This document shows positions 57 through 11,555 of a stretch of 29,677 nt of DNA, in pieces. Positions within the stretch are counted from its first letter, which is position 1; each line of letters starts with the position of its first letter. The notes under the pieces were generated by a model. That model did not search any database and was not told where the DNA came from. It saw only the letters and a list, made by a program, of their open reading frames with translations. The translations under genes were made by a program, and so were the position numbers. This DNA is from a virus. The stretch covers positions 1 through 29,677 of IMG/VR virus record IMGVR_UViG_3300037502_002311, one strand, 5' to 3'.

Positions 57-85
57 TTGAAACGTAACACGCCTTCCCCTATGAT
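57..85 (+). promoter_or_regulatory. Strong sigma70-type promoter ahead of the first gene
   Basis: A TTGAAA -35 box (57-62) and a TATGAT -10 box (80-85) are separated by exactly 17 bp. Each differs from the bacterial housekeeping consensus at one or two positions. Transcription would start near 91-93, about 45 bp upstream of the ATG at 136. It is the best promoter match I found in the window and suggests the first gene is read by unmodified host RNA polymerase, as expected for an early phage gene. Confidence 0.7.
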
Positions 86-93
86 CGTCACAT

Positions 94-113
94 GCTGCGG
101 CAGTCACCGCAGC
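94..113 (+). promoter_or_regulatory. Stem-loop at the predicted 5' end of the first transcript
   Basis: GCTGCGG (94-100) and CCGCAGC (107-113) form a perfect 7-bp stem with a 6-nt loop, starting within a few bases of the predicted transcription start. A stem at the extreme 5' end commonly protects mRNA from decay. The same dyad could instead be an operator for a dimeric repressor just downstream of the promoter. The sequence cannot separate these. Confidence 0.4.
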
Positions 114-135
114 CAAACCCCAGAGGATAGGAACC

Positions 136-753
136 ATGTTCGCAGACTTCCCCGCCGCCGATTGGACCCTTGCCCGTGGCATCATCGCATCGCAGGCCGT
201 GCGGGCCGGAATCGACCACGCCCGGGCAGACGACATGGCACAGACCGCCATGCTCGCAATCCTGAAGAGGACCAAACCCTACCGGGTTCCGGTCGAAGGC
301 CCAGCCCACGCGGCCCGCATCATGGCCCGCTTCGCCCAGCGGCAGGGCTGGCATACGCTGGACCATGCCGCCCGGGCATCACGCCAGAGGGCCAGCCGGG
401 GCCTACAGGCCGAGGCGGACGCCCACGTGGTCAACGTGGCACTGGGCCGCAGCACAACCCCCAGCCCCGCGGACATGGCGGACGACGCGGATCGTCTGGG
501 GGTGCCGGTGGATCGTATCCACGCCGCCCACGGGATCGGACCGGGGGCCCTTGCCGAGCCGGGACACACCCCCAGCGTCTACGGGAGCGGACCGGCCACG
601 CCCACGCCCGTGGCAGGGGCCCGCTTCGCACGGCTGGCGACCGATCCCAACATGGACGCCACGCTCGCGGCTCGCAGCGGCCCGGTATGGCGGGAGGGGG
701 CGGACCTGACCCACTACCGCGACCAACTGGCCGAGTACTACGCCGGTCGCTGA
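136..753 (+). CDS. Putative sigma-factor-like regulatory protein (sigma region 2 resemblance)
   Basis: This 205-aa protein starts at an ATG preceded by an AGGATAGGAA-type ribosome site and lies directly behind the strongest promoter. Residues about 25-86 (GIDHARADDMAQTAM... through ...HAARASRQRA) resemble sigma-70 region 2: an acidic alpha-helix with the pattern A-D-D-x-x-Q, then a stretch where ECF sigma factors have a conserved 'W-L-x-x-I-A-R-N' helix (here HAARIMARFAQRQGW), ending in a basic patch. I see no clear region 4 helix-turn-helix in the Pro/Gly-rich second half. If real, it could redirect host polymerase to phage promoters. It could instead be a different small helical DNA-binding protein. 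The coding call is firmer than the function. Confidence 0.5.
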   Translation: MFADFPAADWTLARGIIASQAVRAGIDHARADDMAQTAMLAILKRTKPYRVPVEGPAHAARIMARFAQRQGWHTLDHAARASRQRASRGLQAEADAHVVNVALGRSTTPSPADMADDADRLGVPVDRIHAAHGIGPGALAEPGHTPSVYGSGPATPTPVAGARFARLATDPNMDATLAARSGPVWREGADLTHYRDQLAEYYAGR

Positions 754-823
754 GCGTACCGGGTTGCGGGTGAGAGAGCGCCGCACAAGGCGACCCACCC
801 GCAGCCCGGCGGACGATGCAACC

Positions 824-4293: not shown

Positions 4294-5025
4294 ATGGACT
4301 TCCGCTGGCGTGTCCCACTGCATCCGGACGATGCGGCGTACAACCGCAAGGTGTACGAAGACGCCCGCGCCGACGTTTCCGACATCGAATCCGCCCAGCG
4401 ATCCCTGGACCTGCACCGCCTGGCTCATGTCGCCGCTGGGGCCCGGCACGCCGAGAGGATGATGCGCCAGGGTCAATACCCCGGCTTGTCTGGTCGCGAA
4501 GTTGACCAGGAGATGGCGGCCCGGGATGGGGTACGATTCGCGGACCGCAGCGGTGCAGCCGGCCGCAGCATGCAGCTTGGGTATCTCGGAGGTCTTGCAC
4601 GGGCCGGCGAGTGGGCGTCGTCTGAGCCAGAGAGTCGCCACATCGGCATGCAGGCGATGCTCGTTCCTGAGCAGGCGTTGATGCACGCCATGGAAGCGCT
4701 TTCGTCCGACGGGGATGTTCCGCGACCCGCCAGCGAGACGGCGAGCAGGCTTGCCGCGGCGGTGCCTGCGGCGTTTTTCCCGGAGGTGGGGTATCCCATC
4801 CAGCCCGCGTATGACCGGCTGTACCGCGAGCTTGGCCCAATCAAGGGGGCCTTCGTTGACTACGCGGCCATGCCTGGCGTGGACGTCATAGGGCGGCCTG
4901 CCTTGCGCGGCGCGGAACGAATGCGCTACGGCGCTGGCGCACGCACTGATCTCATCGACCAGGCCGGCGATGTGATTCGCCGCCTTCGCAACTCGCCCCA
5001 GGTGCGAGTTGGGTACGCACGCTGA
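4294..5025 (+). CDS. Hypothetical protein (243 aa), possible virion protein
   Basis: The start ATG follows the previous stop by 2 bp, so the genes are probably coupled; the ribosome site is weak. The first 110 residues are helical and charged (DDAAYNRKVYEDARADVSDIESAQRS). The central part has MGMQAMLVPEQALMHAMEA-like hydrophobic helices, and the C-terminus is basic. I do not recognise a family. The rhythm of amphipathic helices resembles the disordered and helical proteins at the far right of the window. It is the last gene before the capsid module. Confidence 0.65.
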   Translation: MDFRWRVPLHPDDAAYNRKVYEDARADVSDIESAQRSLDLHRLAHVAAGARHAERMMRQGQYPGLSGREVDQEMAARDGVRFADRSGAAGRSMQLGYLGGLARAGEWASSEPESRHIGMQAMLVPEQALMHAMEALSSDGDVPRPASETASRLAAAVPAAFFPEVGYPIQPAYDRLYRELGPIKGAFVDYAAMPGVDVIGRPALRGAERMRYGAGARTDLIDQAGDVIRRLRNSPQVRVGYAR

Positions 5026-5099
5026 AAAATCCGTTTGCGGATTGACGCACCGGGGCACTCTTTCCTCAGGCACCCCCTTTGCCGTCAGAGAGGAAAGTA
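5026..5099. promoter_or_regulatory. Leader region of the capsid module
   Basis: This 74-bp gap is one of the few between genes. It contains AATCCG/CGGATT (5028-5033 and 5038-5043), a perfect 6-bp stem with a TTTG loop and no T-tract after it. A TTGACG box (5042-5047) overlaps the second arm. No good -10 hexamer lies 16-18 bp downstream, so a classical promoter is not supported. A phage-modified promoter, or an RNA-processing hairpin feeding the capsid genes, remains possible. An AGAGGAAAG ribosome site serves the ATG at 5100. Confidence 0.35.
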
Positions 5100-6098
5100 A
5101 TGAGCGACGAAGACATCCAGTCCCAGGTAGCGGAAGCCCCTGAGTCTGATTCGTCCCCGCAGATCGTTGACAACTCGCCTGATACGCAAGCGTCTCCGCA
5201 GCCGCAGGGCAGCGTGTATGACGCGTTTAAGTCGCTGCCTGAGTTCCGCGGGCAGGACGACATCTCCATCGCCCGCAACCTGTACCAGACCTACCACGGT
5301 TTCGGTCAGGCCCAGCAGCAGCTCCGGCAGTACCAGGAGTATGCGTCGGAGTACGCTCGCAACGCCGACCAGTTCCGCAAGTGGCAGGCCGCTCAGCAGC
5401 AGGCCGCCGCTCCGCCGCAGCCGCAGAAGCCCAAGTGGTGGGATCCGCCGCAGGTCCGCGACGAGTGGAAGCAGTTCATCGTTCGCGACCCTGAGTCTGG
5501 CCGTGAGATCATCGCCCAGGATGCTCCGCTGGACGCCCAGTCTGCGATCAAGGCCTATCAGGCCTACACGGCGCAGTTCGCCAAGAAGTTCGTCACGGAT
5601 CCGGAAGGCACCCTCAAGCCTTTCGTTGAGGACCTGGTCCAGCAGAAGGCCCAGGAAATCGTCCAGCAGCAGCTTGGACAGTACACCACACAAAACTACG
5701 TACAGTCGCTGGAACAGCAGAATTCCGACTGGCTGTACAACCAGGACGGCAGCGTCTCCAACGAGGGGCGCGCCATCCAGCACTACATCGATCAAGCAGC
5801 TCGGTCAGGTATCGCTGATCCGCAGGCCCGGTGGGTATTCGCCACCAGCATGCTGGAGCGCGACCTGCTGAACATGCGGTATCAGCAGATGATGGCGCCG
5901 CCGCCGATGCAGGCTCCGATGGAGCCGCCGGCCCCCGCCCCGTCGCCTGTTGAGCAGTCGAACATGCAGTTTTTGCGGGAGCGTGCCACGCGTGCGCCCA
6001 GCAGGAGCGGTGGGGCGACGGAGCCAAGGGCTCCCAAGCCTAAGCGTTCGTTTGAGGACCAACTACGGGGCCAACTCGTTAAGGACGGAGTGATCTAA
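5100..6098 (+). CDS. Capsid scaffolding protein (putative)
   Basis: This 332-aa protein lies immediately before the major capsid gene, the usual place of a scaffold. It has an acidic, disordered N-terminus (SDEDIQSQVAEAPESDSSPQ) and a conserved-looking FRGQDDISIARNLYQTYHG segment. A long Gln/Ala-rich helical centre follows (about residues 75-240), then a Pro-rich linker (PPPMQAPMEPPAPAPSP) and a basic C-terminal helix (KPKRSFEDQLRGQLVKDGVI) of the type that binds coat protein. It would template procapsid assembly and leave before or during packaging. An in-frame TTG at 5079 is an unlikely start, because the ATG at 5100 has a good ribosome site. Confidence 0.7.
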   Translation: MSDEDIQSQVAEAPESDSSPQIVDNSPDTQASPQPQGSVYDAFKSLPEFRGQDDISIARNLYQTYHGFGQAQQQLRQYQEYASEYARNADQFRKWQAAQQQAAAPPQPQKPKWWDPPQVRDEWKQFIVRDPESGREIIAQDAPLDAQSAIKAYQAYTAQFAKKFVTDPEGTLKPFVEDLVQQKAQEIVQQQLGQYTTQNYVQSLEQQNSDWLYNQDGSVSNEGRAIQHYIDQAARSGIADPQARWVFATSMLERDLLNMRYQQMMAPPPMQAPMEPPAPAPSPVEQSNMQFLRERATRAPSRSGGATEPRAPKPKRSFEDQLRGQLVKDGVI

Positions 6099-7779: not shown

Positions 7780-7808
7780 TACTTGCCCTTTTGGGGGCTA
7801 AGGGGGGA

Positions 7809-7842
7809 GCCTCTGACCTGGGCAACTGGGTCAGAGGCTTTT
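7809..7842 (+). terminator. Intrinsic terminator after the capsid module
   Basis: GCCTCTGACC (7809-7818) and GGTCAGAGGC (7829-7838) make a perfect 10-bp stem around a 10-nt loop, followed at once by TTTT (7839-7842). This is a textbook Rho-independent terminator, 29 bp past the decoration gene. It would let coat-protein mRNA accumulate separately from the downstream genes. Confidence 0.85.
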
Positions 7843-7861
7843 CCTGTTTCTGGACTACGCA

Positions 7862-10142: not shown

Positions 10143-11555
10143 ATGCAGCAGAAGTTCAACGTCGGCTTTGTGACTTTCTCCTACGGCGGCAACGGCGGCA
10201 TCTCGTCTGAGGTGCCCAACATCCGGGAGTGGATGGTGCCGCTGGTCGCTGATCTCTCCAAGGACTCACGGATCGACCAGATCCGCGTCTGGAACCTGGC
10301 GGACACGCCGATCACCATGACCCGCAACAGGGCGGTTGTCATGGCCCGGGAGTACGGTGTTGACTGCCTGGTGATGGTGGACTCCGACATGCACCCGGAC
10401 GTTCACGCTGGCTCACTTGACGCGAAGCCCTTCTTCCAGACCAGCTTCGACTTCTTTGTGGACCACTACTCCAAGGGTCCCTGTGTGATCGGTGCCCCCT
10501 ACTGTGGGCCTCCGCCCGTGGAGTGCGTGTACGTGTTCCGCTGGAACAACATGCAGAGCCACAACCCAGGCCCGGACTTCCAGCTGGAGATGTATGACCG
10601 GCACACGGCGGTCAAGATGGCCGGCATCCAGGAGTGCGCCGCACTGCCCACCGGGCTGATCATGTATGACATGCGGGCGTTCTCGCTCACGGAGCCCAAG
10701 ACGACGGACGACAAGCCGTGGTTCTACTACGAGTGGAAGGACCACTTCTGTGCCGAGAAGGCGTCCACGGAAGACGTCACCATGACCCGCGACCTGTCGC
10801 TCGTCGGCACGCAGAAGCTGGGCTACAACCCGGTGTACTGCAACTGGGATGCGTGGGCTGGTCACTGGAAGCCCAAGTGCGTCGGCAAGCCGCAGGTCAT
10901 TGACGCCGCGGGCGTGTCGGCCAAGCTCAAGGACTGCTGGTCCGGCAACTATGAAGTCGGCGTCAAGCTCTGCGACCTCAAGGCACCGGAGTGGCTGGAC
11001 ACGCTCAAGAAGCAGTCGTCCTTTGACGGTCTTGGCATGGAGCTTCCGGAGCGGGACTGCGATGCCATCCGCCGAATGATCACGGACTTCCAGGCGGTTC
11101 ACAACCGCCCTCCAGTCGTTGCCGAGATCGGCTCTTGGGCTGGACGGTCTGCAATCCTTATGGCGTCCCTGGGGGCCACGGTGTATTGCATCGACCACTG
11201 GAAGGGCAACCAGCATGACGCCGGCACCGCCGGGGTGGATCCGGAGACGGCGTACCAGACGTTCCTCCGGAACACCGCCAGGTACCGCGAGGCCGGAAGC
11301 ATTATCCCGTTCCGCGGAAGCTCCGCCGAGGCGTCGGTCCATTTCCTGGCCACCGGCACGGATTTCGACATCGTCTACATCGACGCCGAGCATACGTACG
11401 AGGCGGTCAAGAAGGACATCGCCATGTGGCGGCCCATGGCCCAGCACCTGATCGCGGGACATGACTACGGCGTCTTTCCTGGCGTGGGCAAGGCGGTTCG
11501 CGAGGCGTTTGCCGGCTGGCGAACCGCCGGCAGCGTGTGGATGGCTAAGCCGTGA
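10143..11555 (+). CDS. Fusion of a glycosyltransferase-like domain and a SAM-dependent methyltransferase
   Basis: The first about 290 residues look like a GT-A glycosyltransferase. NLADTPITMTRNRAVVMARE (about 51-70) is followed by VDCLVMVDSDMHPD (about 73-86), whose DSD is the expected metal/nucleotide-sugar binding motif. Residues about 300-470 look like a class I methyltransferase: VVAEIGSWAGRSAILMA (about 323-339) is a glycine motif I, and DFDIVYIDAEHTYEAVKKDI (about 408-427) is the acidic motif and following helix of the Methyltransf_24 type. The product could build and methylate a glycan on host surface or virion, or modify a phage component; the substrate is unknown. Its stop overlaps the next GTG start, tying it to the packaging genes. 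Both domain calls rest on motif reading. Confidence 0.7.
   Translation: MQQKFNVGFVTFSYGGNGGISSEVPNIREWMVPLVADLSKDSRIDQIRVWNLADTPITMTRNRAVVMAREYGVDCLVMVDSDMHPDVHAGSLDAKPFFQTSFDFFVDHYSKGPCVIGAPYCGPPPVECVYVFRWNNMQSHNPGPDFQLEMYDRHTAVKMAGIQECAALPTGLIMYDMRAFSLTEPKTTDDKPWFYYEWKDHFCAEKASTEDVTMTRDLSLVGTQKLGYNPVYCNWDAWAGHWKPKCVGKPQVIDAAGVSAKLKDCWSGNYEVGVKLCDLKAPEWLDTLKKQSSFDGLGMELPERDCDAIRRMITDFQAVHNRPPVVAEIGSWAGRSAILMASLGATVYCIDHWKGNQHDAGTAGVDPETAYQTFLRNTARYREAGSIIPFRGSSAEASVHFLATGTDFDIVYIDAEHTYEAVKKDIAMWRPMAQHLIAGHDYGVFPGVGKAVREAFAGWRTAGSVWMAKP

Follow-up and report, generated by a model that had tools for sequence, protein, structure and literature searches.

The locus and its relatives

Does the left end of this virus record carry a transcription switch, in which host RNA polymerase makes a phage sigma factor that then reads other phage promoters? 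The window, that is, the whole stretch of DNA that we analysed, is a linear virus record of 29.7 kb, probably a fragment, and contains a tailed-phage structural module with PHROGs matches to a major head protein and a terminase. The unit under study lies directly 3′ of the stop codon of a small preceding gene. Its 205-aa open reading frame (ORF 136-753) has orthologues in five other uncultured phage contigs of IMG/VR (L002-L005 and L008; 47-82% identity), which together with the window make up the comparison set of six contigs; searches of genome contigs, plasmids and annotated phages gave no convincing relatives. The promoter, the hairpin and the ORF co-occur in the window and in all five related contigs.

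A conserved host-type promoter with a 5′ hairpin

The non-coding elements of the unit are as follows.

57..85, + strand: sigma70-type promoter TTGAAA-N17-TATGAT (-35 box at 57-62, 17-nt spacer, -10 box at 80-85; 10/12 match)
94..113, + strand: perfect 7-bp inverted repeat or RNA hairpin with a 6-nt loop, GCTGCGG-CAGTCA-CCGCAGC (98% pairwise identity)
759..809, + strand: long hairpin starting five bases past the stop codon (z-score -5.0)

Judged from the window alone, the promoter and its hairpin are near chance and unremarkable. The whole window holds three sigma70-like sites matching at 9/12 or better (4.3 expected) and one at 10/12 or better (0.57 expected), and the hairpin segment folds with a z-score of -2.0, seven of 200 shuffles folding equally well. 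The two elements are significant because they are conserved across the six contigs, in every one of which a sigma70-type promoter (9-11/12) precedes the orthologue at the equivalent place. In the relatives these promoters read:

L003: TTGACA-N18-TACAAT
L005: TTGACA-N17-TACAAT
L002/L008: TTGAAC/TTGCAA-N17-TAGAAT
L004: TTGCAA-N17-TATGAT (window-like)

The five relatives also carry an identical hairpin stem 7-10 nt past the -10 box, the loop showing a single A/T change. When five of the six contigs were aligned, the hairpin had a pairwise identity of 0.98 and the two promoter boxes (-35 and -10) one of 0.77, against 0.51 for the spacer. The higher identity of boxes and hairpin is as would be expected for a functional promoter joined to a sequence-constrained element. 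The promoter and the perfect stem-loop near the transcript start, both described in the first-pass annotation, are present as claimed. From this promoter, recognised by comparison, host RNA polymerase with its housekeeping sigma would start at about position 92; the hairpin begins within a few bases of that point, so that the mRNA would open almost immediately with a stable stem-loop and would carry the second hairpin past its stop codon.

Most likely, the role of the 5′ hairpin is to shield the end of the transcript from decay and so stabilise the message, or else to serve as the binding site of a regulator. For this element only, there is a serious though somewhat doubtful alternative, namely that a dimeric repressor, of the phage or of the host, binds 94-113 as its DNA operator. 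Its position overlaps the transcription start, and the stem shows no compensatory changes, its 14 bases being the same in every one of the six contigs, which fits the sequence itself being read; with so few relatives, however, compensatory changes are hardly to be expected. Phage operators are often repeated, whereas the hairpin is single-copy in each contig, and we rejected it as a repeated operator on that ground. It is known, moreover, that stem-loops in the 5′ UTR can stabilise mRNA (reviewed in PMC7509114). When IMG/VR was scanned for exact copies, one turned up in each of the five related contigs; one further match, in the unrelated contig L012, falls within a coding sequence and was set aside as chance. 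Rfam gave nothing of note near ORF 136-753.

The hairpin past the stop codon folds likewise in five of the six contigs, without a T run, and its covariation is not significant. It may be a terminator, a 3′ protector or something else.

A sigma region 2-like domain

The coding features of the unit are listed below.

136..753, + strand: 205-aa ORF (ATG start), a diverged sigma-70-family-like protein, with orthologues in five contigs and under purifying selection
157..405, + strand: residues 8-90, sigma region 2-like domain (Pfam, NCBIfam, hhalign, AlphaFold2, Foldseek)
466..528, + strand: residues 111-131, marginal helix-turn-helix-like stretch collinear with sigma region 4.2 (score reached by 2/200 shuffles)
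529..750, + strand: residues 132-205, highly conserved C-terminal segment (alignment)

The first-pass annotation had likened the gene product to sigma region 2, and the family, profile and fold comparisons agree on this, each of them weak when taken alone. Sigma70_r2 is the sole Pfam match, a weak one, in three of the five family members scanned; in scans of whole records it fell on ORF 136-753 or its orthologue in four of them (the window and three relatives), scoring 13-17 bits in window-type N-domains. RNA polymerase sigma factor models are likewise the sole NCBIfam matches in the family. The L004 orthologue matches NF008889 (E 7.5e-5) and NF009177 (E 4.1e-4) over residues 33-126, covering region 2 of these ECF models and what follows as far as the beginning of region 4. 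No match exceeds its curated cut-off (13.6 bits vs 24 for Pfam, 22.4 vs 181 for NCBIfam).

For a profile-profile comparison we used 13 ECF sigmas drawn from E. coli, plasmid and phage records. The family alignment scored 31.9 against this profile in hhalign (P 2.9e-4), a value reached by none of 200 column shuffles (maximum 24.9), and the reversed alignment scored 18. When an HMM of the same 13 sequences was run over 969 stop-to-stop ORFs, four orthologues of ORF 136-753 ranked at the top, with E-values of only 0.04-0.1. The AlphaFold2 model of the N-domain has a mean pLDDT of 72, with ten-residue blocks within residues 11-70 at 68-87, and its ten best Foldseek matches in the PDB are all sigma factors, every one at E >1; no confident non-sigma fold emerged. 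Many sigma factors are found among the fold matches of the low-confidence full-length model, and PhyR chains too are among the fold matches. The BFVD fold search gave a mixed list with a few phage sigma factors, and a direct PDB sequence search just a weak match to a designed protein. Within the region 2.2 core-binding motif D-x-x-Q-E, D33 is invariant, the Q is kept in four of the six sequences and the E only in the other two.

The family, profile and fold comparisons, though weak one by one, agree with each other and make it very probable that the N-terminal ~90 residues are homologous to sigma-70 region 2, and the sigma-like label for ORF 136-753 is probably right. It could still be that the protein is no relative of sigma factors, and that the likeness of its first 70 residues to region 2 arose by chance in a helical phage protein of another kind, DNA-binding or structural. 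The weakness of every single match and the lack of any NCBIfam match for the window allele itself would suit that explanation, as would the short three-helix arrangements common to many helical proteins. We hold it to be improbable, given that independent methods and two diverged domain alleles point to the sigma family and that no competing family appeared.

Region 4, the C-terminal segment and exchange of the N-domain

As for region 4, this protein offers a marginal helix-turn-helix at most. Residues 111-131 are modelled as two short helices with modest confidence, and PF04545 has no match at ORF 136-753. The last ~75 residues are the most conserved part of the protein in the orthologue alignment, and this segment (residues 132-205) has no match in Pfam, PHROGs or NCBIfam.

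The L004 orthologue (4998-5609 of its contig) is a mosaic gene, with an L005-type N-domain and a window-type C-terminus: dN in the N-domain is 0.07 to L005 and 0.69 to the window, and in the C-terminus 0.11 to the window and 0.35 to L005. The sigma-like domain has therefore been exchanged as a module. No comparison of either half gives a dN/dS of 0.7 or more, and most C-terminal values lie under 0.4, in keeping with a gene that is translated and held under purifying selection.

Other promoters and a second sigma factor

Three further features bear on the wider claim of a switch, the last two of them in related phage contigs.

10088..10116, + strand: another conserved sigma70-type promoter, preceding the gene at 10143 (in six contigs)
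L023 853-1767, - strand: separate sigma-70 ORF, matching TIGR02937 (sigma70-ECF) with E 3e-8 over residues 12-148
L026 856-1767, - strand: separate sigma-70 ORF, matching TIGR02937 with E 7e-7

The switch had been argued partly from a lack of sigma70 boxes before the later operons. This fails for the operon at 10143, where TTGAC(G/A/C)-N16/17-TACA(C/T)T is kept in all six contigs, and because of this conserved promoter the inference from missing boxes is unsupported. The shared phage motif predicted upstream of 5100, 10143 and 18490 was not found either, as no motif common to these sites and 1508 rose above shuffles. Upstream of the gene at 5079 we noted a conserved element (5025-5102) made of two conserved blocks and a variable spacer. 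Part of it is an inverted repeat (CTTTCCTC/GAGGAAAG) that may mask the Shine-Dalgarno sequence. The element does not recur, and we rejected it as a recurring phage promoter.

Nor is ORF 136-753 the sole sigma candidate of the group. Four relatives (L023-L026) encode a separate and clearer sigma-70 protein, beyond the region covered by the window. TIGR02937 matches in L023 and L026 are accompanied by matches in L024 and L025, and Sigma70_r2 scores around or above its cut-off in the four relatives. In the L002 contig the separate sigma gene lies ~11.5 kb upstream, in window orientation. In L023 and L026, the 3′ half of this ORF overlaps a convergent serine resolvase ORF by ~460-475 nt. If a phage sigma switch exists in this group, the separate protein has no weaker claim to it than ORF 136-753, and the window would not show it.

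The overall reading of the first-pass annotation therefore stands in part: the host-type promoter is conserved and the N-domain very probably is a region 2, whereas the missing boxes, the shared motif and the single sigma fell away. A phage sigma switch is a plausible hypothesis, although one of the supports stated for it was wrong.

Proposed function

We favour, with moderate confidence, the view that an uncultured tailed phage has here, from base 57 to ~810, a single small early unit, which the host transcribes and which encodes an ECF-like sigma or a sigma-like RNA polymerase appropriator. Its transcript, made by the host enzyme, would appear early in infection. The product would be a diverged ECF-like protein made of the region 2-like domain, a possible marginal helix-turn-helix and the family-specific C-terminal segment. 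Because of its homology to region 2, the N-domain is predicted to bind host core RNA polymerase, and the protein would direct this core enzyme to phage promoters.

A bolder version of the same idea, which we consider speculative and rather unlikely, is an RNA polymerase appropriator in which an exchangeable sigma region 2 module is joined to a new C-terminal domain replacing standard region 4, working alongside the second phage sigma and with its synthesis controlled at the conserved 5′ hairpin.

The protein might instead mimic a sigma factor without initiating transcription. Its region 2-like domain would take the place of sigma on host RNA polymerase, or engage the partner of another sigma, and so block or remodel host transcription, much as PhyR employs its sigma-like domain in partner switching; host sigma70, or else the second phage sigma, would then read the phage promoters. 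We regard this as doubtful but credible. The unrecognised region 4, the lack of a phage promoter motif upstream of later operons, the host-type promoter conserved at one downstream operon at least (10143), the other sigma already present in relatives and the PhyR chains among the fold matches would all agree with such a role. Against it speak the collinear helix-turn-helix-like stretch at the expected place of region 4 and the L004 match to ECF models as far as the start of that region. PhyR has a sigma-like fold that serves a purpose other than initiation. It also has a receiver domain, which was not found in ORF 136-753.

Returning to the reading as an ECF-like sigma or appropriator, the closest known arrangement is that of phiEco32 and its relatives, in which early genes are read by host sigma70 and middle and late genes by gp36 (PMC3594737, PMC4281155, PMC4331800), for which a promoter motif has been identified (PMC4281155). 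This ECF-type phage sigma is identical to the SU10 CDS32 product, and phage 7-11 has a similar system. Like the ORF 136-753 product, gp36 is a phage sigma-70-family-like protein of ~205-215 aa from a tailed phage with host-type promoters, and the core-binding motif of region 2.2 can be aligned between the two (DHARADDMAQTAMLAIL against DYHEAEDVAQEVLLNAW). The host-type promoter upstream of a sigma-like gene, conserved in six of six contigs, adds to the likeness to a phiEco32-type cascade. However, gp36 is annotated as a sigma factor, while in ORF 136-753 region 4 is not recognised and the C-terminus is unrelated to known families; a target motif was not found upstream of later operons, and relatives have a second sigma. 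That second protein belongs to the sigma-70 family, as ORF 136-753 probably does, and is encoded by related phages, but is the clearer match. Bacterial ECF sigmas of the RpoE type share the region 2-like domain (profile-profile P 2.9e-4), yet the similarity is much lower than among ECFs themselves, with region 4 again unrecognised and the C-terminal extension unique.

The viral strategy of placing a phage sigma-like protein behind a host-type start signal is already known; the protein itself appears new and unusual. If our interpretation is true, two sigma-like proteins occur in a group of uncultured phages of ~60 kb, and one of the two retains just a region 2-like domain, joined to a novel C-terminus. 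Phage sigma factors would then be more varied than is known so far, and there would be a small system in which to test the minimal needs of a sigma factor. The conserved host-type promoter and hairpin make it a compact early unit open to testing.

Other observations in the window

Beyond the unit, a short conserved stretch (GCATTGGTCTGTATGGC, 1490-1530) opens the next gene and is followed by very different proteins among the relatives, so that in the alignments it looks like a module-exchange boundary. The protein encoded at 1827-2654 has a sub-cut-off match to a polyvalent-protein ADP-ribosyltransferase domain (PF18760, E 4e-5). Downstream of the head genes, 7808-7843 resembles an intrinsic terminator, being a conserved hairpin with a T run.
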